Source: an uncultured Desulfosoma sp.
GTDB lineage: Bacteria; Desulfobacterota; Syntrophobacteria; Syntrophobacterales; DSM-9756
NCBI GenBank assembly: GCA_937960435.1
Contig: CALGPN010000015.1
Span: 62,001 to 126,000 of the forward strand
DNA: 64,000 nucleotides
Reading direction: 5' to 3'
Below are positions 12,629 through 30,196 of the stretch, piece after piece. The position numbers were made by a program, and so were the translations under genes. The notes beneath the pieces were generated by a model. The model was not told where the DNA came from, ran no database searches, and was given only the letters and a program-made list of their open reading frames with translations. Each line of letters opens with the position of its first letter. Position 1 is the first letter of the stretch.

Positions 12629-13039
12629 TCAGTCTTTCAGCGGACTGGGCCCCAAGGCCCGGATCTTTTCCACCATGGCGCTCGCGGCGTCCACGAATTG
12701 TTGGCCTTTTCCGGCCATCATGTGAAAAAGAGCCACCCGGTCGGGTTCTACACCCAGAGCCGGTAGGAGTGTCTGGACATATTTGACTTTCTTTTGGGCC
12801 TTTTCGACGCCGTGTTTGAATTGGCAGCTGTCCGGCTGGCAACCGGCCACATAGACCCCGTCGGCCCCGGCTTCCAACGCTTTCAAAAGATGCAAACTGT
12901 CCAAACGCCCCGTGCACGGCAGCTGAATCACTTTGACGTTTTCCGGCAGGCTCAACCCCATCTTCTCCGCGATCTGGGCGGCCGAAGAGGCGCAATTGGC
13001 ACAGCAATAACCGATGATTTGCGGTTCAAAAGTGCTCAT
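12629..13039 (-). CDS. mvhD: MvhD-like hydrogenase/heterodisulfide reductase delta subunit (all-Cys form)
   Basis: IIGYCCANCASSAAQIAEKM, LPCTGRLDSLHLLKALEAGADGVYVAGCQPDSCQF. Confidence 0.88.
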   Translation of the reverse strand: MSTFEPQIIGYCCANCASSAAQIAEKMGLSLPENVKVIQLPCTGRLDSLHLLKALEAGADGVYVAGCQPDSCQFKHGVEKAQKKVKYVQTLLPALGVEPDRVALFHMMAGKGQQFVDAASAMVEKIRALGPSPLKD

Positions 13040-13081
13040 AGGACCACTCCTTGTCTCTTGTCTCGATAAGCCGTGGCGTCG

Positions 13082-15847
13082 TCAGTTCACGTCGGATCCC
13101 AGAAGACTCAGCGCCATGACGGCGATGTGGTCGTCACTCAGCCGTCGATAGGAAATGGCCTTCCCCGGGCATTCGCTCACACACATGCCGCATCCCTGGC
13201 ACAGACCCGGGTCGATGAAGGCATGGCCTTGCGGGCTGTCGATAAACGGAATGTGGAACGGGCAGGTGCGCACACAGGTCAGGCACACGGCGCATTTGTC
13301 GGGATCCACTTCCGCAACGGCGCCCCCGACGAGCATGACATCTTGGCGTAGAAGCCGCATGGCCCGGCCTGCCACGGCCCACGCTTCGGCAAGACTTTCT
13401 TCCACCGGTTTGGGGGCCAGAGCCAGCCCGGCGAAAAAGACACCTTCCGTCTCACCGTCCACAGGGCGCATCTTCGCCGGGGATTCCGCGAAGAACCCGT
13501 CCTCATTCAGGGAGACTTTGTAAAAGGCGGCCAGATCGGCGGCTTCCGCGGGGATGATGGCTGTCTGCAAAGAGATGAAATCCGGGGAAAGAGCGAGAGG
13601 CCGCCCGAGGATGGGATCCGTAACGACGACTTTCAATCGGCCATCCTCTATGCTCACCTGAGGTTTGGAATCCAGATCGAAGCGGATGAAAAACACGCCC
13701 TTTTCCCGGGCTTCTTTGTAAATCCGCTCCCTCTCGCCGAAGGTGCGCACTTCACGATACAGCACGTAGACATCCATATCCGGATTCAGGGTCTTGAGGT
13801 CAATAGCCGAACGGACGGCGAAGGTGCAGCACAGGCGGCTGCAGTAAGGCCTTTGGGGCTCACGGCTCCCCACGCACTGGATGAACACGGCGCACTGCGC
13901 GGATTTGAAAGCCGCGGGGTCATCGATGAGCTTTTTCGTAAAATCCGACCATCGGTAGATTTCCGGGTGCTTGCCGTAGGCGTACTCATCGGGTTTGATG
14001 GAATGAGCCCCCGTTGCCAAGACGACCACCCCGTGTTCGATTTCTTTCTTTTGCCCGTTGTGGCGCACGGTGCTGATGTAGTTTCCGGCGAAGCCTCGAG
14101 CCCCCACCACTTCGGCCGAGGTGAGCACGGTAATCTTGGGGTGCTGCGTGACCTTGTCGATGGTGCTTTTGAGAAAATCCTGGACCGATTCGCCCTTCCA
14201 TGCCGAGCGGACCTTGTGGGCATGTCCCCCCAGACGGTCTTTCTTTTCCACTAAGGTCACCGGCACGTCCATTTCGGCAAGGGCTAGGGCTGCCTGCATT
14301 CCGGCAAGACCGCCGCCGATGACCAAGGCGGATTTCTTCACGGGAACTTTGGCATAGTTCAGGGGTTCGAGCATACGGGCCTTGAGGACGGCCGTGCGGA
14401 AAAGGTCTTGAAGTCGGTTCATTTCCACAGGGGTACTTCCTAAGGCCCTGAGATCCACGAACTCATAGAGGCTGGGGTTCAGCCCCGCTTCCTTCATGGC
14501 GCTTTCCACCAGTTCTTGATGCATGAGGGGCGTGCAGCTTGCATACACCAATCTGTTGACGCCGGCGGCCTGGAGACGTTGCGAAAGCCGACCAAAGGCG
14601 GCGCTGTCCAAAAGGTCCAAGCGTTCCACAAAGGTCACGCCGGGGAGGGTCTTGACGAAAGCGGCCAAGGGATCGATCAAGGCTTCGAATTCGGGAAGCT
14701 TCGACGGGCACAAGCTCAAAACCACGCCCACGGAAGGCGCCTCTCCGCTCACATCGCGAAACTCCGCCACGGCGCCGTTTCCAGAAACGCCCTTCGTCCA
14801 TGCGGCGGCCTTGGCCGCGGCGGCACCCGCTTCCACCACACTTTGATGGACATCCCTGGGCCCTGTGGCACCGCCGCAGACGAAAACGCCCGCAACGTTG
14901 GTTTCGCAGGGCTTGAAATTGTCGACAGCCACGTAATGGTCTTCGGAGAGGGTCACGCCAAGCATCTTCGCCAGCTCTTCCAATTCGGCCGATGGGCGAA
15001 GCCCCACGGAGAGGACCACGAGATCGAAGGTTTCCACCTGCTTGGCGCCGTTTTCATCCACATATTCCAAGACCAGGTCTTCGGTACCGGCTGCTTTTTC
15101 AATGCTGTGAATCCGGCTTCGGACGAGACGCACCCCTTTTTGCTTGGCGTCTTCAAAGTATTTTTCATAGCCTTTGCCGTGCGTGCGCATGTCCATAAAG
15201 AAGATGGTCGTTTCCGCCTCCGGCAGGGCGTCCTTCAACTGCACGGCTTCCTTTAGGGCATACATGCAGCACACCGACGAACAGTAAGGCGCATCGCACT
15301 TATTGATTTCTCGGGATCCCACGCACTGGAGCCACGCCACTTTCTTGGGCGGTTGGCCGTCGGAAGGCCGCTTGGGAACGCCTTGAAAGGGGCCTACGGG
15401 TTTTTGGAGCCATTCCAGTTCGATGCTGGAGATGACGTTTTCATAGGCTGCATAAGCGTAGGTGTCGTAGGCCTGAGGGTTGAACGGTTCCACACCCATG
15501 GCGAGGATCACCGCATCGGCCTCTATGGGGGTTTCGCCGGTCGGTCCCGCAATGACGGCCTGGAATGCGCCGGCTTGGCCGGAGATCCTCGCGACGCTCG
15601 ACTTAGTCCATGCGCGGATGTTGGGGTGCATTTTACAGAGTGTGGCGCGATTTGCGGCCTTGCAGCAGCTGCACAAGGGGTAGAGGCGGTGAAGTTTGGC
15701 CACCGTCCCGCCCAGGTCGCTTTCCTTTTCCACCAGGTCCACGTGGTAGCCTTGAGCCGCCAGGTCCAGCGCGGCATTCAGCCCGGCGACACCGCCTCCA
15801 ACCACCAGGACATTGCCCTTGTTCTTCTTTTCTTTTGTTTCCGTCAT
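13082..15847 (-). CDS. hdrA: HdrA-like protein with two FAD/HdrA modules and C-terminal 2x[4Fe-4S] domain
   Basis: Two GGG(V/L)AG dinucleotide-binding motifs (VLVVGGGVAGLNAAL; ALVIGGGLAGMQAAL), QCVGSRE twice, C-terminal CxxCxxxCP pairs. Start set at MTETKEKK. Confidence 0.9.
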   Translation of the reverse strand: MTETKEKKNKGNVLVVGGGVAGLNAALDLAAQGYHVDLVEKESDLGGTVAKLHRLYPLCSCCKAANRATLCKMHPNIRAWTKSSVARISGQAGAFQAVIAGPTGETPIEADAVILAMGVEPFNPQAYDTYAYAAYENVISSIELEWLQKPVGPFQGVPKRPSDGQPPKKVAWLQCVGSREINKCDAPYCSSVCCMYALKEAVQLKDALPEAETTIFFMDMRTHGKGYEKYFEDAKQKGVRLVRSRIHSIEKAAGTEDLVLEYVDENGAKQVETFDLVVLSVGLRPSAELEELAKMLGVTLSEDHYVAVDNFKPCETNVAGVFVCGGATGPRDVHQSVVEAGAAAAKAAAWTKGVSGNGAVAEFRDVSGEAPSVGVVLSLCPSKLPEFEALIDPLAAFVKTLPGVTFVERLDLLDSAAFGRLSQRLQAAGVNRLVYASCTPLMHQELVESAMKEAGLNPSLYEFVDLRALGSTPVEMNRLQDLFRTAVLKARMLEPLNYAKVPVKKSALVIGGGLAGMQAALALAEMDVPVTLVEKKDRLGGHAHKVRSAWKGESVQDFLKSTIDKVTQHPKITVLTSAEVVGARGFAGNYISTVRHNGQKKEIEHGVVVLATGAHSIKPDEYAYGKHPEIYRWSDFTKKLIDDPAAFKSAQCAVFIQCVGSREPQRPYCSRLCCTFAVRSAIDLKTLNPDMDVYVLYREVRTFGERERIYKEAREKGVFFIRFDLDSKPQVSIEDGRLKVVVTDPILGRPLALSPDFISLQTAIIPAEAADLAAFYKVSLNEDGFFAESPAKMRPVDGETEGVFFAGLALAPKPVEESLAEAWAVAGRAMRLLRQDVMLVGGAVAEVDPDKCAVCLTCVRTCPFHIPFIDSPQGHAFIDPGLCQGCGMCVSECPGKAISYRRLSDDHIAVMALSLLGSDVN

Positions 15848-16058
15848 GGGATCCCCTCGACTCTTGAATGGATCAACGGACAAAATAGCTCCCCCAAACT
15901 CTGGCGGCAAACCTTCCGATGCCTCTCGCCCCGAGGCGACTTTGGAGACAAAAAGGCTCCTGTTCCGGTCTCTTGGTGAAGGTTCGGTGCTCCTTACCGT
16001 GGGCAGATGATCCACAACACACGGTTCTTGTATGTGAAAAAAGAGGCAACGTCAAGGT

Positions 16059-19000
16059 TCATTGTCCTTGTGCGGCGGCTTCGGGGCGAGCCGTCTGTTC
16101 GGTCCGGCACACAGCGGCCACGGCCTTGTGGAGCAGTTGGACGTCGGTGAAATGCTGAAGCTGGATGGCTTTTCCCGGGCATTCGGCCACGCAGGCGCCG
16201 CAGCCTTGGCATTTTGCCGGGTCGATGTAAGCCGATCGGCGCACGGACATGGTGGGGGTGACCACCACGGGCACCTCGTAGGGACAGGTGCGCACACACG
16301 TCAGGCACACAGCGCATTTGGCGGGGTCCACCACGGCCACGCGCCCACCGACAAAGAGGTTTTCCTTGCTGAGGACCGTGGCGGCCCGGGCGGCGGCGCC
16401 CTTGGCCTGGGCGATGGATTCTTCCAAGAATTTCGGGCTGTGTGCCAACCCGCACAGATAGAGTCCAGGGCCGGCAAAATCCAGAGGCCGCAGCTTCACG
16501 TGGGCTTCCATGAAAAACCCGTCCGCGTCGGTGCTCAGTTTGAACAGCCCCGCCAACGCCGCACTGGTCGCCCTGGGCACGATGGCGGCGCTGAGCACCA
16601 GAAGATCGGCTTGAAAGCGGACATATTCCCGAAGGTTCTGATCGAAGAGTTCGACGCGGACGGCGCCGTCTTCAAAGGTCACCTCCGGTTTTTCCTCCGG
16701 CCGATACCGAAAGAATCGGACACCCGCCTCCCGGGCTTTTCGGTAGAGCAATTCCCGGGTGCCGAAGGTCCGAATATCCCGATAAAGCACGGTCACATGA
16801 GTTTTGGGATTTTTTTCCTTGATGCGCAAGGCATTGGCCACGGCCGCCGTGCAGCACACCCGGCTGCAGTAAGGCCGCTGCTCGTCGCGCGACCCCACGC
16901 ATTGGATCATGACCACGTGAGAAAGGGCGTCGGTCCGGGCGGGGTCTTCGGCCAAGATCCTTTGCAGCTGCAATTGGGTCGTCACCCTCGGGTCGGACCC
17001 GTAACCGTACTCTGTGGGTTGATACTCTTCCGCGCCCGTGGCCACGACCAAGGCGCCGTACTCCAACGTCCTTTCCCCTTGGGGGGATTTGATACGGCTG
17101 AGGAAATGTCCCGTATGACCTTCAAAGGAGAGGATTTCCGTCTGGGTAAGCACCTCGATGTTGGGATGATGGCGCACGGTGTCGATGGTCTGGGAGACCG
17201 CCCGGGTCACATCGATCCCGCTGGGGTGGAACCGGATCCACGCTCGAGCCTGACCGCCCAGATCCGTTTCGCGCTCCACCAGGTAGGTGAAGAAGCCTTG
17301 ATCGGCGAGATACCGTGCGGCGGTCATGCCGGCCATGCCGCCTCCCACCACCAAGGCCTTCTGGGTCACGGCCACGGGCATTTCGTGAAGCGGTTCAAGG
17401 AAGAGAGCCTTGGCGACGGCCATGCGCACCAAATCCTTGGCCTTTTCCGTGGCTTTATCGGGGCTTGTCCCATGGACCCAAGAACACTGATCACGGATGT
17501 TGGCCATTTCAAAGAGATACTTGTTGATGCCCGCTTCCCGCAGGCATTCTTGAAACAGGGGCTCGTGGGTCCGAGGTGAACAAGAGGCGACCACCACGCG
17601 ATTGAGGTTTTTTTCCTGGATGATCCTCTTGATCTTTTCGGTGGAATCCGTGGAGCAGGAAAAAAGAAGATTTTCCGCGTGGACCACGTTGGGTAAGGAG
17701 GCGGCGTAAGCGGCGACGCCTTTCACGTCTACCACGCCGGCGATGTTGATGCCGCAATGACAGACGAAGACGCCGATCCGCGGAATGTCCCCGACAACGG
17801 AATGTTCTTGAACGACGACCGGTGGTGTTGTGCACGTGTGGCGCGCCGCGGCGAGCAGGCATTGGGCCGAAGCGGCTGCGGCGCTGGCCTGGGCTACCGT
17901 CTCCGGGATGTCCTTGGGATCCGTGCTCACGCCGCAGGAAAAGATCCCCGGCTGGCTGGTCTGCACGGGATCAAGGGGATCGGAGACGACGAAGCCGAAT
18001 CGATCCACATCCGTCCCGAGGCGTTGGGCGGTTTCCTTAGCCCCCTCCGATGGCACCAATCCCACGGAAAGAACCACCATGTCGAAGACTTCGCTCTGGA
18101 GCGTGTTGTTTTCGTCCACATAGGAAATTTCCAGGTTGTGCCCTTCCACGGTTTCGATGATGCGGCTGATCTGGCACCGCACGTAGCACACCCCGTGCTG
18201 GGCCTTCGCCCGTTCCCAATACCGCTCAAACCCTTTCCCCATGGCCCGAAGGTCGATATAGAAAATGGTGGTCTCCACATGGGGCTCATGGTCCTTGGTG
18301 ACGATGGCCTGTTTGGTCGCATACATACAGCAGACGCTGGAACAGTAGTCCCGCCCGATGGAAGCATCCCGGGATCCGACGCATTGAATCCACGCCATTT
18401 TTTTCGGCACGACGCCATCGCTGGGCCTTTGCACATGGCCGCCCGTCGGGCCCGATGCGGCGAGGATCCTTTCGTATTCCAAGCTGGTGATGACGTTGGG
18501 ATAGCGGCCGTAACCGTATTCGGGTTTTTGTGCGGCATCGAACGGATGATATCCGCACGCGTAAAGGATCGCACCCACTTCCACGGTCTCTTCCCGCGGC
18601 TGCATGGAGTGATCGATGGCCTGAGGCAGGCAGGCCTCCACACACCGATAGCACTCGCTGCACACGCCGCACTGGAGGCACCGTTGGGCTTCGGCCCGGG
18701 CCGTTTCTTCATCGAAGCCCAGCTGCACCTCCTGAAAGGATTGGATCCGCTCGGGCATGTCCAACCGAGGCATGCGGGATCGGGGCACCTTGGGCACCGG
18801 TTTGTCCGGGCATGGGGCCGTGCGGCTGGAAACCAGCCGACCTTCCCTCAAATCCACTCCGCGAAGATACCGGTCGATGGATTCGGCCACTTCTTTGCCG
18901 GCGGCGATGGCTTGAACGACGGTGGCCGGGCCGGAGGTCACGTCGCCCCCGGCAAAAACCCCCGGTCGATTCGTTTCATACGTGACAGGGTCCACCACAA

Positions 19001-20567
19001 AGGTCCCCCAGCGGCTCACCACGGGGCGGCTGTCCGGGTCCATGGCGTCGATGACGGAGGGATCGGTCATGAGGCCCACGGCGGCGATGACGCTCTCGAT
19101 CTTCACCTGGTATTCAGACCCCGCTACGGGAATGGGCCGGCGGCGGCCGCTTTCGTCCGGCTCTCCCAGTTCCATGCGGATACACTCGATGGCCGTGACA
19201 TGACCCTCCGCGTCTCCGTGGATGGCCACAGGCGCCGCCAGAAAATGCATCTGCACCCCTTCTTCCAGCGCTTCCTCCACTTCCTCTTGGTTCGCCGGCA
19301 TCTCGTCCCGGCTTCTGCGGTAAAACAGATGGACTTCTTCGAGGCCTAAGCGAATGCATGATCGGGCCACGTCCATGGCGCAGTTGCCACCACCGATGAT
19401 CGCCACTTTGCGACCGACGGGAGGCCTTTGGCCCATGTTCAGCTGCTTGAGAAAGCTCGTGCCCGTATAGACTTCCCGGAGATTTTCGCCGGGGATGTTG
19501 AGTTTGAGGTCCGTTTGGGTCCCGATGGCGAGGAAGAACGCTTCGTAGCCTTGCCGGCGCAGATCCTCCAGCTGGAAATCCCTTCCCAGGGCCGTGTTCG
19601 TTTGGATCTCCACTCCGAGCTTTTGGATGTGATCGATTTCCGCTCTGAGCACATGGCGCGGCAGGCGATATTCCGGGATGCCGTAGCGCAGCCAGCCGCC
19701 CGGTTCGGGCATCGCTTCAAAAATGGTGACGCCGTAGCCTTCCAACGCCAAATAATAGGCCGCCGTCAACCCCGCCGGTCCGGCACCCACGATGGCCACG
19801 CGACGCCCCTTGGGTTCCTTTTTCGGCGGCACAGGCGCCTCACCCGTTTGGGCTTCCCAATCGCAGACGAATCTTTTGAGGAAATCGATGGCAACGGGTT
19901 CATCCACCGTGCCGCGGCTGCACACCGTTTCACACGGGTGGTGGCATACGCGGCCGCACACCGCCGGCAAAGGATTGTCCTTTCGAATGAGGTCGAGGGC
20001 TTCGCGGTAGCGCCCTTGGGCTATGAGGGCCACGTAGCCTTGGACGCTGATGCCCGCGGGGCAGGCCGCCTTGCACGGTGCCATGCCCTTCTTGTCGATG
20101 GCGAAAGTGGAGGGGATCGCTTGGGGAAAGTGCCGGTAAATGGCCTTCCGCTTTCCCAGCCCCTGATCGAAGTCGGCCGGGAGTTCCACCGGGCACACAC
20201 GCAGACATTCCCCGCAGGCCGTACACCGGTCTTCCAGGACAAAGCGGGGTTCACGCCGCAAGGTCACCCGGAATCGGCCCGGTTCCCCTTCCAGCTTGGA
20301 GACGCTGGTTCGGGTGAGAATATCAATGTTTGGGTGGCTTGCCACCTCGATGAGTTTCGGCGAGATCATGCAGGTGGAACAATCGTTGGTGGGAAAGGTC
20401 TTGTCCAGTTTGGCCATATTGCCGCCGATGCTGATGTCTTTTTCCACGAGAAGGACCCGGTAGCCGCTGTTGGCCAAGTCCAGGCTTGCCTGCATGCCGG
20501 CAATCCCACCTCCGATGACCATGACCGATCCGCTGACAGAGTGTGTAGGTGCCGCCTGAGCGTTCAT
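16059..20567 (-). CDS. Giant HdrA-like flavoprotein (1502 aa): split HdrA module with inserted GltD/NfnB-like domain, followed by a second complete HdrA module and ferredoxin domain
   Basis: HdrA-type VIGGGIAGMQASLDLANSGYRVLLVEKDISIGGNMAKLDKTFPT, then GltD-like CPAGISVQGYVALIAQGRYREAL...VAIVGAGPAGLTAAYYLA...IPGENL...GGNCAMDVARSC, then HdrA again (QCVGSRD, VFVCHCGINIAG..., ALVVGGGMAGMTAARYLAD). Confidence 0.9.
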   Translation of the reverse strand: MNAQAAPTHSVSGSVMVIGGGIAGMQASLDLANSGYRVLLVEKDISIGGNMAKLDKTFPTNDCSTCMISPKLIEVASHPNIDILTRTSVSKLEGEPGRFRVTLRREPRFVLEDRCTACGECLRVCPVELPADFDQGLGKRKAIYRHFPQAIPSTFAIDKKGMAPCKAACPAGISVQGYVALIAQGRYREALDLIRKDNPLPAVCGRVCHHPCETVCSRGTVDEPVAIDFLKRFVCDWEAQTGEAPVPPKKEPKGRRVAIVGAGPAGLTAAYYLALEGYGVTIFEAMPEPGGWLRYGIPEYRLPRHVLRAEIDHIQKLGVEIQTNTALGRDFQLEDLRRQGYEAFFLAIGTQTDLKLNIPGENLREVYTGTSFLKQLNMGQRPPVGRKVAIIGGGNCAMDVARSCIRLGLEEVHLFYRRSRDEMPANQEEVEEALEEGVQMHFLAAPVAIHGDAEGHVTAIECIRMELGEPDESGRRRPIPVAGSEYQVKIESVIAAVGLMTDPSVIDAMDPDSRPVVSRWGTFVVDPVTYETNRPGVFAGGDVTSGPATVVQAIAAGKEVAESIDRYLRGVDLREGRLVSSRTAPCPDKPVPKVPRSRMPRLDMPERIQSFQEVQLGFDEETARAEAQRCLQCGVCSECYRCVEACLPQAIDHSMQPREETVEVGAILYACGYHPFDAAQKPEYGYGRYPNVITSLEYERILAASGPTGGHVQRPSDGVVPKKMAWIQCVGSRDASIGRDYCSSVCCMYATKQAIVTKDHEPHVETTIFYIDLRAMGKGFERYWERAKAQHGVCYVRCQISRIIETVEGHNLEISYVDENNTLQSEVFDMVVLSVGLVPSEGAKETAQRLGTDVDRFGFVVSDPLDPVQTSQPGIFSCGVSTDPKDIPETVAQASAAAASAQCLLAAARHTCTTPPVVVQEHSVVGDIPRIGVFVCHCGINIAGVVDVKGVAAYAASLPNVVHAENLLFSCSTDSTEKIKRIIQEKNLNRVVVASCSPRTHEPLFQECLREAGINKYLFEMANIRDQCSWVHGTSPDKATEKAKDLVRMAVAKALFLEPLHEMPVAVTQKALVVGGGMAGMTAARYLADQGFFTYLVERETDLGGQARAWIRFHPSGIDVTRAVSQTIDTVRHHPNIEVLTQTEILSFEGHTGHFLSRIKSPQGERTLEYGALVVATGAEEYQPTEYGYGSDPRVTTQLQLQRILAEDPARTDALSHVVMIQCVGSRDEQRPYCSRVCCTAAVANALRIKEKNPKTHVTVLYRDIRTFGTRELLYRKAREAGVRFFRYRPEEKPEVTFEDGAVRVELFDQNLREYVRFQADLLVLSAAIVPRATSAALAGLFKLSTDADGFFMEAHVKLRPLDFAGPGLYLCGLAHSPKFLEESIAQAKGAAARAATVLSKENLFVGGRVAVVDPAKCAVCLTCVRTCPYEVPVVVTPTMSVRRSAYIDPAKCQGCGACVAECPGKAIQLQHFTDVQLLHKAVAAVCRTEQTARPEAAAQGQ

Positions 20568-24942: not shown

Positions 24943-26292
24943 ATGACGGGGCGCTTCAAAATCCTTGTGGCCGACGATGAGCTCATTGTTCGGGAATCTT
25001 TGGTGGCCTGGCTGAAAAAAGGAGGCTATCAAGTGGACGCCGCCTCGGGGGGCGGGGAGGCGCTGGAGTCCCTGGAAAAATCTGCCTACGATTTGCTCTT
25101 TCTCGACATCAAGATGCCGGACATGAACGGCATTGACGTGCTCAGGGTGGTCAAGCAGCGCTACCCCGGGACCATGGTGGTCATGATCACGGCCTACGGC
25201 TCCGTAGAAAGCGCCGTGGAAGCCATGAAGCTGGGGGCCAACGACTACCTCATGAAACCTTTCGAACCCGAGCAGCTGGCTCTTCTGGTGGAAAAGCTCC
25301 TTCAGCACAAGAAACTTATCGACGAAAACATCTTGCTCCGGGAACAGATGGCGACGGCGGCGGTGGAGCGCTATCAGGATATGATCGGCGCCTCCCCCGC
25401 CATGCAGACTCTTTTTGAAATGGTGGAAAAGGTGGCCGCCGTGGATTCCCCGGTGTTGATCAAGGGCGAAACGGGCACGGGAAAAGAACTGGTGGCCAAA
25501 GCCATCCATGCGCGCAGCGCCCGCCGTTACGGCCCCTTCATTGCCATCAACTGCGGCGCCTTTACGGAAAGTCTCTTGGAAAGCGAGCTTTTCGGCCATG
25601 AGGTGGGCTCGTTTACAGGCGCCGTCAAGGCCAAAAAGGGCCGTTTGGAGCTGGTTCGCGGCGGGACTCTGTTTCTGGACGAAGTGGGGGAAATCCCGAT
25701 GAAGATGCAGGTGGACCTTTTGCGCGTGCTGGAAGAGCGCCGGATCCACCGGGTCGGGGGCACACGGGACATCCCCGTGGATTTTCGTCTGATTTCGGCA
25801 ACCCACCGGGATTTGACGAAAGCCATGGAAGCAGGCCACTTTCGTCGGGACTTTTACTTCCGGCTGAACGTGTTGGAATTGGAAGTGCCGCCGCTGCGGG
25901 CTCGTCGGGAAGACATCCCGATATTGGCGGATTTTTTTCTTCGTCGATTCCGGAAAGAAACGAATAAGCCGGTGGAAAGCTTGGACAAGAAAGCGGTGGA
26001 GCTGCTGTGCGCGTACGATTGGCCCGGGAATGTGCGCGAGCTGGAAAATGCCGTGGAGAGAGCTGTGGTGTTGGCCAAAGGCCGGATCTTGACGGAAGAC
26101 GATTTCGCCTTTTTGAAAAGAACCGTCGGGACGGTGGAACCCCAATCCCTAGAGGACATGGAAAGACTTCATATCCAGCGCATTTTGAACCTGTGCCGAG
26201 GCAACATCAGTCAAGCCGCCCGGATCCTCAAGATCAACCGCACGACCCTGCACAGCAAGATCAAAAGGTATGGGCTAACGGGGAGTGCGTGA
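24943..26292 (+). CDS. Sigma54-dependent response regulator (NtrC/AtoC family)
   Basis: Receiver DDELIVRES..DIKMPDMNG; AAA+ GETGTGKELVAKAIH, GAFTGAVKAKKGRLE (GAFTGA as SFTGA), Fis-type HTH at C-terminus. Confidence 0.95.
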   Translation: MTGRFKILVADDELIVRESLVAWLKKGGYQVDAASGGGEALESLEKSAYDLLFLDIKMPDMNGIDVLRVVKQRYPGTMVVMITAYGSVESAVEAMKLGANDYLMKPFEPEQLALLVEKLLQHKKLIDENILLREQMATAAVERYQDMIGASPAMQTLFEMVEKVAAVDSPVLIKGETGTGKELVAKAIHARSARRYGPFIAINCGAFTESLLESELFGHEVGSFTGAVKAKKGRLELVRGGTLFLDEVGEIPMKMQVDLLRVLEERRIHRVGGTRDIPVDFRLISATHRDLTKAMEAGHFRRDFYFRLNVLELEVPPLRARREDIPILADFFLRRFRKETNKPVESLDKKAVELLCAYDWPGNVRELENAVERAVVLAKGRILTEDDFAFLKRTVGTVEPQSLEDMERLHIQRILNLCRGNISQAARILKINRTTLHSKIKRYGLTGSA

Positions 26293-26894
26293 CGGTGGTC
26301 GGAGATGGGGAGGCGTTGGCCCCGGAGGGGCTTCAGGCGACCATCGGCGTGGTCCCTATGGGGGACGTGGGGGAAGTGGCGGTGCGCATTGTCGCGGCCC
26401 ATCTTCAAACCGTGCTGGGGCTTGCGGTCGACATTCTCGAGCGACGGCCCGTGAGCGATCGCTGCTATGTTCCCGATCGGCGTCAATACGACGCGGCCAA
26501 GCTCATCGCGGCTTTGAAGGAATGCAGCGCCTCGTGGCCGTATCTTAAAATTGTGGCTGTGTTGTCCGTGGATTTGGGCGTGCCCATCTTACGGTTCGTA
26601 TTCGGGGAAGCTGAAATGGGCGGGCGCTGCGCCGTGGTTTCGGGCTATCGGCTTCGTCGGAACGAAGACGGCACCGACGCGGGTCTGGAGGTTTACTACG
26701 AAAGGCTGGCCAAGGTGGCCTTACATGAGACGGCGCATACCTTGTCTCTTTTTCATTGTGACGATCCCCGTTGTCTCATGCACTTCGCCGCGTCGACCAA
26801 ACACCTGGACCGCATTCGACTGTTTTTTTGTGCGCGCTGTGCGTTTCTTCTCAAGAAAACCGTCCAAACCCTTCTGGAATCCCATGGCCCATAA
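26289..26894 (+). CDS. Archaemetzincin-like zinc metalloprotease (GTG start overlapping the upstream TGA)
   Basis: HETAHTLSLFHCDDPRCLMHF...CARC matches the archaemetzincin signature HExxHxxxxxHCx4CxM...CxxC. Confidence 0.85.
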   Translation: MTVVGDGEALAPEGLQATIGVVPMGDVGEVAVRIVAAHLQTVLGLAVDILERRPVSDRCYVPDRRQYDAAKLIAALKECSASWPYLKIVAVLSVDLGVPILRFVFGEAEMGGRCAVVSGYRLRRNEDGTDAGLEVYYERLAKVALHETAHTLSLFHCDDPRCLMHFAASTKHLDRIRLFFCARCAFLLKKTVQTLLESHGP

Positions 26895-27021: not shown

Positions 27022-27468
27022 ATGAGCGACTTTGAACCCAGAATTGTGGCTTTTTGTTGCATGTTCTGAGCCTACACCGCCGCGGACCTGGCAGGTTCGA
27101 TGAGGCTCAACTATCCGCCCAACGTGCGCATCGTCAATGTGCCGTGTACGGGTCGGGTCGACGTAATCCATCTGCTCAGGGCCATCGAGACCGGGGCGGA
27201 CGGGGTGTATGTGGCCGGATGCATGGAAGGAGAGTGCCATTTCCGCAATGGCAACATCAAGGCCAAGCGGCGGGTTCTAGCGGTCAAAAAGATCCTGCAG
27301 GAAGTGGGGCTGGAGCCGGAGCGGGTGGAGATGTTCAATGTGTCCGCCTCCGACGGTCCGCGGTTTGCGGCCATCGCCCGGGAAATGACGGAACGGGTTC
27401 GGGCCCTCGGCCCCAGTCCCTTGCGGGATCCTGAGGTATGTGCGGCATGGATGGAGGCGGCGCAGTAG
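27022..27468 (+). CDS. mvhD: MvhD-like delta subunit, probable selenoprotein (in-frame TGA at 27067-27069)
   Basis: MSDFEPRIVAFCCMF-[TGA]-AYTAADLAGSMRLNYPPNVRIVNVPCTGRVDV aligns with the Cys paralogue YCCANC-ASSAAQIAEKMGLSLPENVKVIQLPCTGRLDS, TGA replacing Cys. Track only shows 27100..27468. Confidence 0.85.
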
Positions 27469-27596
27469 GCTGAATGCTTAGGGCACGGTGAGCGAACGCG
27501 CAAAGGGGGGTGCGGACGAACGCGGCCCGCATCACGGGTGACGGACCAGTCCGAGGGTGCGCGGCATCCGAGGACGCGCCAAGGGAGGAAAGATTT

Positions 27597-28268
27597 ATGG
27601 TTGTTGCCGAACGGAAACCCATAGAGGAAATCCTTGCGATGGTTGCCGACTTCAAAAAGGTTCTCCTGGTCGGCTGCAAGGGTTGCGTGACGGTCTGCTG
27701 TGCCGGGGGGACCAAGGAAGTGGGCATCTTGGGCTCCGCACTCCGGATCGCCAGGAAAAAGCAAGGCAACCCTCTGGAGGTTGTCGAGCACACACTGGAA
27801 CGCCAGTGCGATCCCGAGTATGTGGATCAGCTGGCGCCCATGCTCGCTGGCAACGGTTTTGACGCGGTCCTGTCCATGGCGTGCAGCGTCGGCCCCCAGT
27901 TCATCGCCAAAAAGTACACCATTCCCGTCTACCCCATGCTCAACACGACATTCATCGGGGGGGCTTTGGAACACGGCGTGTGGGCGGAATTTTGCCAATC
28001 GTGCGGCAATTGCATCATCCACAACTTCGGCGGTCTGTGTCCTATTGCGCGTTGTTCGAAAAGCTTGATGAACGGGCCGTGTGGGGGCTCGGCGAACAAA
28101 AAATGTGAGGTGAGCCCGGAGATCGACTGCATCTGGCATTTGATTTACGACCGCATGGTGGAACTCGGGCAGCTGGAAAAGCTCCGACCCGTATTCCCCA
28201 TCAAGGATTGGTCGACGAGCCGTGATGGTGGTCCTCGAAAGATCGTGAGGGAGGATTTGAAGCTATGA
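27597..28268 (+). CDS. metV: MetV-like methylenetetrahydrofolate reductase C-terminal (zinc/iron-sulfur) domain protein
   Basis: VGCKGCVTVCCAGGTKEV, FCQSCGNCIIHNFGGLCPIARCSKSLMNGPCGG. Confidence 0.88.
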   Translation: MVVAERKPIEEILAMVADFKKVLLVGCKGCVTVCCAGGTKEVGILGSALRIARKKQGNPLEVVEHTLERQCDPEYVDQLAPMLAGNGFDAVLSMACSVGPQFIAKKYTIPVYPMLNTTFIGGALEHGVWAEFCQSCGNCIIHNFGGLCPIARCSKSLMNGPCGGSANKKCEVSPEIDCIWHLIYDRMVELGQLEKLRPVFPIKDWSTSRDGGPRKIVREDLKL

Positions 28269-29191
28269 AAGCCGGAAGCAACCTGGAGAAGGTTTTTACC
28301 CAAGGGCATTTCGCGGTCACAGGCGAGTTGGGTCCTCCCCGCGGCGCATCTGTTGAAGTCATTGAAAAAAAGGCCGGCTATCTGCGCGGTGTGGTGGATT
28401 CCATCAACGTGACGGACAATCAAACCTCGGTGGTGCGGATGTCGAGCGTGGCCGTGTGCAAGCTTTTGGTGGACATGGGCTTGGAGCCGAACTTGCAAAT
28501 GGTCTGCCGGGATCGCAACCGCATCGCCATGCAAAGCGACCTTTTGGGGGCGTACGCTTTGGGCATTCGTAACGTGTTGTGCCTTTCCGGGGACCACAAC
28601 CGGTTCGGCGATCACCCCCAGTCGAAAAACGTCTTCGACGTGGATTCCATGCAACTCATCAGCATCGTAAAGAAGCTTCGCGACGAAGGCAAAATGTTGA
28701 GCGGCCAGGAATTGGAGGGGGTTCCCAAATTCTTTATCGGGGCGGCGGCCAACCCCTTCGGCGATCCCTTTGAATTCCGCGTGACGCGACTGGCTAAGAA
28801 GATCGACGCCGGGGCGGACTTCATCCAGACCCAGTGCATTTACAACATGGAAAAATTCCGAAAATACATGCACATTGCCCACGAAGAAGGCCTGACCGAG
28901 AAGTGTTACATCATGGCGGGCATTACCCCGCTGAAGTCCGTGGGCATGGCCCGATACATGGCCAATTTTGTGCCCGGCTTGGATGTGCCCGACTATTACA
29001 TCAATCGTCTGAAAGGCGTGGACAAGAAGAAACAGGCGGACGAAGGCATCAAGATCGCCGTGGAGCAAATCCAAGAGGTGCGGGAAATCCCGGGCGTCAA
29101 AGGCATCCATCTCATGGCCATCGAATGGGAACACAAGGTGCCCGAAATTCTTCAGGCCGCTGGGCTCCTGCCGAGACCTTCCGTCAACTGA
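28265..29191 (+). CDS. metF: 5,10-methylenetetrahydrofolate reductase
   Basis: FAVTGELGPPRGAS, NVTDNQTSVVRMSS, CRDRNRIAMQSDLLGAYALGIRNVLCLSGDH. Confidence 0.95.
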   Translation: MKAGSNLEKVFTQGHFAVTGELGPPRGASVEVIEKKAGYLRGVVDSINVTDNQTSVVRMSSVAVCKLLVDMGLEPNLQMVCRDRNRIAMQSDLLGAYALGIRNVLCLSGDHNRFGDHPQSKNVFDVDSMQLISIVKKLRDEGKMLSGQELEGVPKFFIGAAANPFGDPFEFRVTRLAKKIDAGADFIQTQCIYNMEKFRKYMHIAHEEGLTEKCYIMAGITPLKSVGMARYMANFVPGLDVPDYYINRLKGVDKKKQADEGIKIAVEQIQEVREIPGVKGIHLMAIEWEHKVPEILQAAGLLPRPSVN

Positions 29192-29434: not shown

Positions 29435-30196
29435 ATGGGACTGACGGTGGCTTTTGGAGGCAAAGGCGGCACGGGGAAAACGACGCTGGCCGGCCTTTTG
29501 ATTCGATACCTTGTCGAAAAGAACATGAAACCCGTTTTGGCGGTGGATGCGGATTCCAACGCGAACCTGAACGATGTCTTAGGGATGCCTTTGGCCGAAA
29601 CCCTTTCGGATGCTCGAGAAATGATGAAGAAGGACGTGCCGACGGGCATGACCAAAGACATCTTTATGGAAATGAAAATGGAACAGGCTTTGGTCGAAGG
29701 GGACGGATTCGACCTCATCGCCATGGGCCAACCGGAAGGCCCGGGCTGCTATTGCGCGGCCAACAATCTTCTCAGCAGCCTTCTCGACCGCCTGATGAAT
29801 AATTACAAGTACCTGGTGATTGACAACGAAGCGGGCATGGAACACTTCAGCCGTCTGACCCAAAAGGATGTGGACGTGCTCGTGTTGGTGTCCGATCCCA
29901 GTCGGCGGGGCATGACGGCCGCCTGCCGGATCGCGGATCTGGTGAATTCCTTGCCCATGCGTGTGGGCCGAAAGGTCTTGGTGGTTAACCAAGTGCAGGA
30001 GGCGCCGACCCATTGGCCTGCGGAGGTGATCCAGACCTTTTCCAATGGAAACATTTATACCATGCCTGCGGACCCGCTTCTGGCCCAATTCGATATGGAG
30101 GGAAAGCCCACGAGCCAATTGCCGAAAGATTCCAAAATGGTCCAGGCCGCGTGGGCGCTTTTTGACAAGATTGTCCAGGAGGTCCAAAAATCCTGA
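29435..30196 (+). CDS. cooC: CooC-type CODH nickel-insertion/accessory ATPase
   Basis: [21 protein letters not shown] deviant Walker [31 protein letters not shown]. Confidence 0.92.

Follow-up and report, generated by a model that had tools for sequence, protein, structure and literature searches.

The plus-strand gene at 27022-27468 of the window, by which we mean the whole analysed stretch of 64,000 nucleotides from an uncultured Desulfosoma sp., encodes a 148-aa MvhD/FlpD protein that almost certainly carries selenocysteine (Sec), the actual incorporation of which we infer from sequence-level support, namely the reading frame, homology, Sec/Cys interchange, SECIS conservation, the Sec machinery of the genome and gene order. 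Under the proposed mechanism, UGA 27067-27069 would be decoded as selenocysteine by tRNA-Sec(UCA) together with SelB, and the latter would be positioned by a bacterial SECIS (bSECIS), the essential part of which would be the hairpin 27084-27098. Sec16 would thereby take the place of the second cysteine in the C13xxC16 motif of a small iron-sulfur electron carrier, and electrons would most likely pass between an HdrA-type flavoprotein and a MetVF-type methylene-tetrahydrofolate (methylene-THF) reductase of the Wood-Ljungdahl pathway, as suggested by the accompanying metV and metF genes. We consider this reading as a whole, including the Sec-containing MvhD, the SECIS at 27084-27098, Sec16 within the CxxC motif and the MetVF electron route, to be highly probable.

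From ATG 27022 to TAG 27468, the reading frame is open through the TGA, and it is the same frame as that of the ORF called at 27100. With TGA translated as U, the product begins with MSDFEPRIVAFCCMFUAYTAADLAGSMRLNYPPN... and belongs to the FlpD/MvhD family PF02662, scoring 172.5 bits where the cut-off is 22.3 (residues 8-130 aligned to positions 1-123 of the 123-position model, E 4.4e-51). Because the model is aligned from its first position across the TGA, the segment preceding this codon belongs to the protein. The upstream extension proposed in a preliminary description of this DNA is thus borne out by the translation and the full-length family match, and so is its warning that standard gene calling shortens the protein: the standard-code ORF begins at 27100, and its product would be without C12, C13 and residue 16, losing the CxxC motif. 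Nor do the homologues start at the downstream MRLNYPP, as they would if the extension were spurious; the upstream FEPxIxxFCCxxU/C signature is common to them. The ORF start at 27100 is also what speaks for regarding the UGA as a true stop, or the gene as decayed, with translation restarting at ATG 27100 to yield a 122-aa protein lacking CxxC. We consider this very improbable, given that 46 distinct genes carry TGA at exactly this codon, that the coding sequence is conserved to either side of it and Cys codons take its place elsewhere, and that synonymous positions 3' of it are held constant solely when TGA is present, a pattern that decay would not yield.

In-frame TGA codons that extend an ORF are common by themselves (72 cases in the window), and the evidence must therefore rest on homology; what sets 27067-27069 above chance is, in our assessment, the homology spanning the TGA combined with the synonymous-site conservation 3' of it. 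Among the homologues from 80 loci, collected by scanning the genomes of bacteria and archaea, plus the copies in the same genome, the codon aligned with residue 16 is TGA in 50 matches, TGC in 32 and TGT in 23, and the three other codons (GAC, GAC and GGT) belong to remote paralogues from the same genome with 31-35% identity. Close homologues exclusively have TGA (46 distinct genes) or TGC/TGT, confirming the earlier claim that the TGA sits exactly at the second cysteine of the motif (C13-M-F-U16). TGA is universal among the nearest relatives (Desulfacinum, Syntrophobacteraceae and others; 70-86% identity) down to ~75% identity, below which TGA still predominates and Cys forms are interspersed. 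When 39 genomes of the order were searched, the best orthologue contained exactly one TGA in 8/8 genomes of the window's own family, and the same-family orthologues with the identical TGA are 81-90% identical to the protein described here. A misread TGT or TGC, named in the preliminary description as a potential refutation, might be suspected of a single assembly of a draft genome; nevertheless, with TGA recurring in all eight family genomes and dozens of separately sequenced orthologues from many independent assemblies, sequencing error is refuted in practice and we assign it a negligible probability. The all-Cys paralogue at 12629..13039 (PF02662, E 8.4e-40), with which the gene had been aligned, is real, carries CCANC and is 50% identical, but lies on the minus strand.

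Residue 16 is Cys or Sec in 103/103 aligned proteins, an alignment whose rows were chosen to have one of the two at this position, with the three remote Asp/Gly paralogues excluded; C13, C/U16, C42, C67 and C72 are kept in every one of these rows. This conservation throughout makes Sec16 a candidate ligand or near neighbour of the iron-sulfur cluster. In a tree of the 103 proteins, in which the deep forks are weakly resolved, the Sec label requires seven changes, which suggests that Sec and Cys were exchanged for one another several times in the evolution of MvhD.

The core of the predicted SECIS, GGACCU-GGC-AGGUUC (27084..27098, plus strand), combines a 6-bp stem with a 3-nt loop starting with GG (GGC, 27090-27092) located 20 nt from the UGA, in line with what has been published for bSECIS on loop, stem, guanines and spacing (PMC13188914). 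Its signature is best seen at synonymous sites: when the 46 distinct TGA genes were compared with 31 Cys homologues, each with at least 56% identity, third-base entropy in the codons GCG-GAC-CTG-GCA-GGT was 0-0.15 bits in the former versus 1.0-1.8 bits in the latter, and the flanking codons varied about equally in both groups. The exact hairpin occurs at the same offset in 44/46 TGA genes versus 0/31 Cys genes (Fisher p ~1e-19, ignoring relatedness), and the arms still pair in the two inexact TGA genes (L041, L066). In a second search, the hairpin was present in 25/25 TGA genes, 5 of which carry a stretch identical to one in the first set, versus 0/4 Cys genes, and the hairpin string, with one mismatch permitted, occurs a single time in the 3.0-Mb genome. 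Being nearly invariant, the hairpin offers almost no countable covariation.

Folding energies tell little. The core with its flanks, GCGGACCUGGCAGGUUCGAUG, folds at -8.2 kcal/mol, also in keeping with the bSECIS rules, and the 15-nt core by itself at -4.5 kcal/mol; for 27067-27110, RNAfold gives -17.8 kcal/mol with a z of -2.2, which is modest alone, and the z values against dinucleotide shuffles range unremarkably from -2.2 to +0.15 according to the stretch folded. Nor did folding energy, whether as MFE or as synonymous-recoding z, favour the TGA genes over the Cys genes, the latter being slightly better on average, and it was dropped as SECIS evidence in favour of synonymous-site conservation. 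Rfam returned zero family matches for the SECIS region. The preliminary description had envisaged a nested hairpin, and both of its arm pairs are indeed present; the inner one, ACCT 27086-27089 / AGGT 27093-27096, lies in the conserved core, but the outer arm GCCT 27070-27073 / AGGC 27103-27106 (27070..27106, plus strand), although it folds in this gene, differs in most TGA homologues and is probably not required. The hairpin thus provides a clean case of a SECIS that is visible through frozen synonymous sites and invisible to folding energies alone, and the 15-nt element, kept nearly letter for letter in dozens of Sec-MvhD genes, can serve as a search string for repairing Thermodesulfobacteriota annotations.

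The 3.0-Mb genome (61 contigs, 95% complete) encodes the complete selA/selB/selC/selD set on which the preliminary description had made its reading depend: selA (623 bits), selB (408 bits), selD (375 bits) and a tRNA-Sec with the anticodon TCA (74.5 bits). SelD carries a TGA of its own in the known GAGUASKL motif (UxxK Sec; L021:1531-1533, residue 28 when translation begins at 1450), which gives the genome another Sec gene, of a well-known kind. The co-occurrence of the TGA with selA offered no contrast, selA being found in 39/39 genomes of the order. Contig 34 additionally encodes a tRNA-Sec-like tRNA-Cys and a second SelB-like factor, and these raise the alternative that the UGA is read as cysteine by SelB* and the selC* tRNA, all the more so as selC* with an opal anticodon has been described in Desulfobacterales (PMC7609411). 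Here, however, the anticodon of the selC*-like tRNA is GCA, which is unable to read UGA and rules it out as the UGA reader in its own genome, whereas the canonical tRNA-Sec has TCA; furthermore, strong SelB* matches occur in 23/395 genomes of the phylum, in which the TGA with its hairpin is widespread. We accordingly give decoding as cysteine hardly any credence, and retain selenocysteine as the preferred reading.

The contig-34 locus (L014:1441-4618; also L105-L110 and L112) deserves attention in its own right. It consists of the selC*-like tRNA-Cys(GCA) gene, an mvhD paralogue, a 184-aa ORF with no Pfam match (L014:3422-3976, minus strand) and the second selB-like gene, and this arrangement, including the ORF between the mvhD copy and selB*, is kept in 7 genomes of the order. 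In other parts of the phylum, selC*-like tRNAs adjoin selB* without mvhD. The tRNA resembles tRNA-Sec and, its 4-bp T-stem carrying a bulged A as read from the sequence, fits the previously described selC* tRNA-Cys, which selB* is known to follow (PMC7609411, a review); an mvhD copy and a 184-aa ORF inserted between the two were not found described in the open-licence literature. The mvhD of contig 34 is the closest paralogue of the Sec-containing gene in this genome (65% identical, with TGT as the codon at the Sec position) and, in the 103-protein tree with its weakly resolved deep forks, branches as sister to the entire Sec-containing clade. The operon connects the enigmatic SelB*/tRNA-Cys* pair to an MvhD sister to the Sec-containing proteins. 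At the Sec position, the codon is TGT in 8/8 selB*-linked mvhD copies, and the other Cys codons of these genes are mixed; coming from few independent lineages, and with no hairpin behind the UGU conserved among the eight sequences, this uniformity is suggestive only. It would be a long shot, in our estimate, that both parts of the following scheme hold: that Sec16, as a selenolate, coordinates the [2Fe-2S] cluster, or is its redox-active neighbour, in an MvhD devoted to methylene-THF reductase and tunes the electron-transfer step of the Wood-Ljungdahl pathway, and that SelB* with tRNA-Cys* inserts cysteine at the equivalent UGU of the sister MvhD in the selC*-selB* operon. In other loci, tRNA genes with the anticodon TCA, labelled tRNA-SeC by ARAGORN, adjoin the second selB (L113:1152-1243, L114:1243-1334, L135-L140 and L150), and these are candidates for either opal selC* tRNAs or additional tRNA-Sec genes.

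Downstream of the Sec-containing mvhD lie, on the plus strand, a metV-like gene for the MetF partner subunit (27597..28268, 223 aa from ATG 27597; C-terminal DUF5981/PF12225, E 1.4e-35 when translated from GTG 27510) and metF for methylenetetrahydrofolate reductase (28265..29191; PF02219, E 4.3e-43). The order mvhD(Sec)-metV-metF spans 27022-29191 and forms one cluster, as expected of an Hdr-type MetVF complex; metV is found in 66/80 homologous loci and metF follows mvhD in most of them. An HdrABC-MvhD-MetVF assembly has been proposed as the Hdr-type methylene-THF reductase of acetogens, and in Sporomusa ovata tagged MvhD pulls down HdrB, HdrA and MetF (PMC9430772); work on MvhD and VhuD places a [2Fe-2S] cluster in MvhD, from which electrons are fed to HdrA (PMC6019823). 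The setting of the gene suggests a role in electron transfer involving methylene-THF reductase and raises the question of why the electron carrier of this enzyme would use selenium. The electron route is nevertheless the weakest part of the explanation because no hdrA is adjacent: mvhD(Sec) of this window and its counterparts in the four closest loci (L024-L027) lack a neighbouring hdrA, and in most of the remaining homologous loci hdrA/hdrL immediately precedes mvhD. A possible partner is the hdrL-hdrA-mvhD cluster on the minus strand at 12629-20567, ~7 kb from mvhD(Sec), which comprises a 1502-aa HdrA with a glutamate-synthase-small-subunit-like fusion, a 977-aa HdrA and, as its last gene, the all-Cys MvhD, with HdrA2-type matches at 13082-16015 and 16059-20567. 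An in-frame TGA upstream of hdrA at 16054 (minus strand) was rejected as a Sec candidate, the likely HdrA start being the internal MTETKEKK. The surroundings further include an archaemetzincin-type (peptidase M54) gene that immediately precedes mvhD(Sec) (26007-26894) and, downstream of metF, a MinD/CooC-like ATPase gene (29435-30196), which occupies the same place in Desulfacinum (L025-L027) and may encode a maturation factor of the pathway.

Sec-containing FrhD/MvhD/VhuD proteins (PF02662, CxxU) constitute an established, catalogued selenoprotein family (PMC13188914; PMC9312934), in agreement with the earlier remark that such subunits are known in anaerobes; for instance, Desulfobacterium autotrophicum HRM2 has four mvhD genes with Sec (PMC2702500) and Desulfococcus multivorans has one (PMC5109826). 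The gene at 27022-27468 adds to this documented family of sulfate reducers and methanogens, with which it shares the Pfam domain, the CxxU position and occurrence in sulfate-reducing Deltaproteobacteria, but it was missed by standard ORF calling and is located directly upstream of metV-metF with no adjacent hdrA. We found no description of a metVF-linked Sec form, or of the invariant 15-nt element, in the open-licence literature, and a term search of the report on the Moorella/Sporomusa system (PMC9430772) returned no mention of Sec for its MvhD. Homology to the MvhD of the HdrABC-MvhAGD complex (PDB 5odc chain D; 7bkb chain F) extends over the full length (E ~1e-40), but in that protein a cysteine is aligned with U16, and the partner hydrogenase subunits were not seen at the 27022-27468 locus. 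In the HdrABC-MvhD-MetVF system of Moorella thermoacetica and Sporomusa ovata (PMC9430772), mvhD is linked to metV and metF, as it is here; the two differ in that hdrA/hdrL of the present window reside elsewhere, at 12629-20567, in the company of an all-Cys mvhD of their own.
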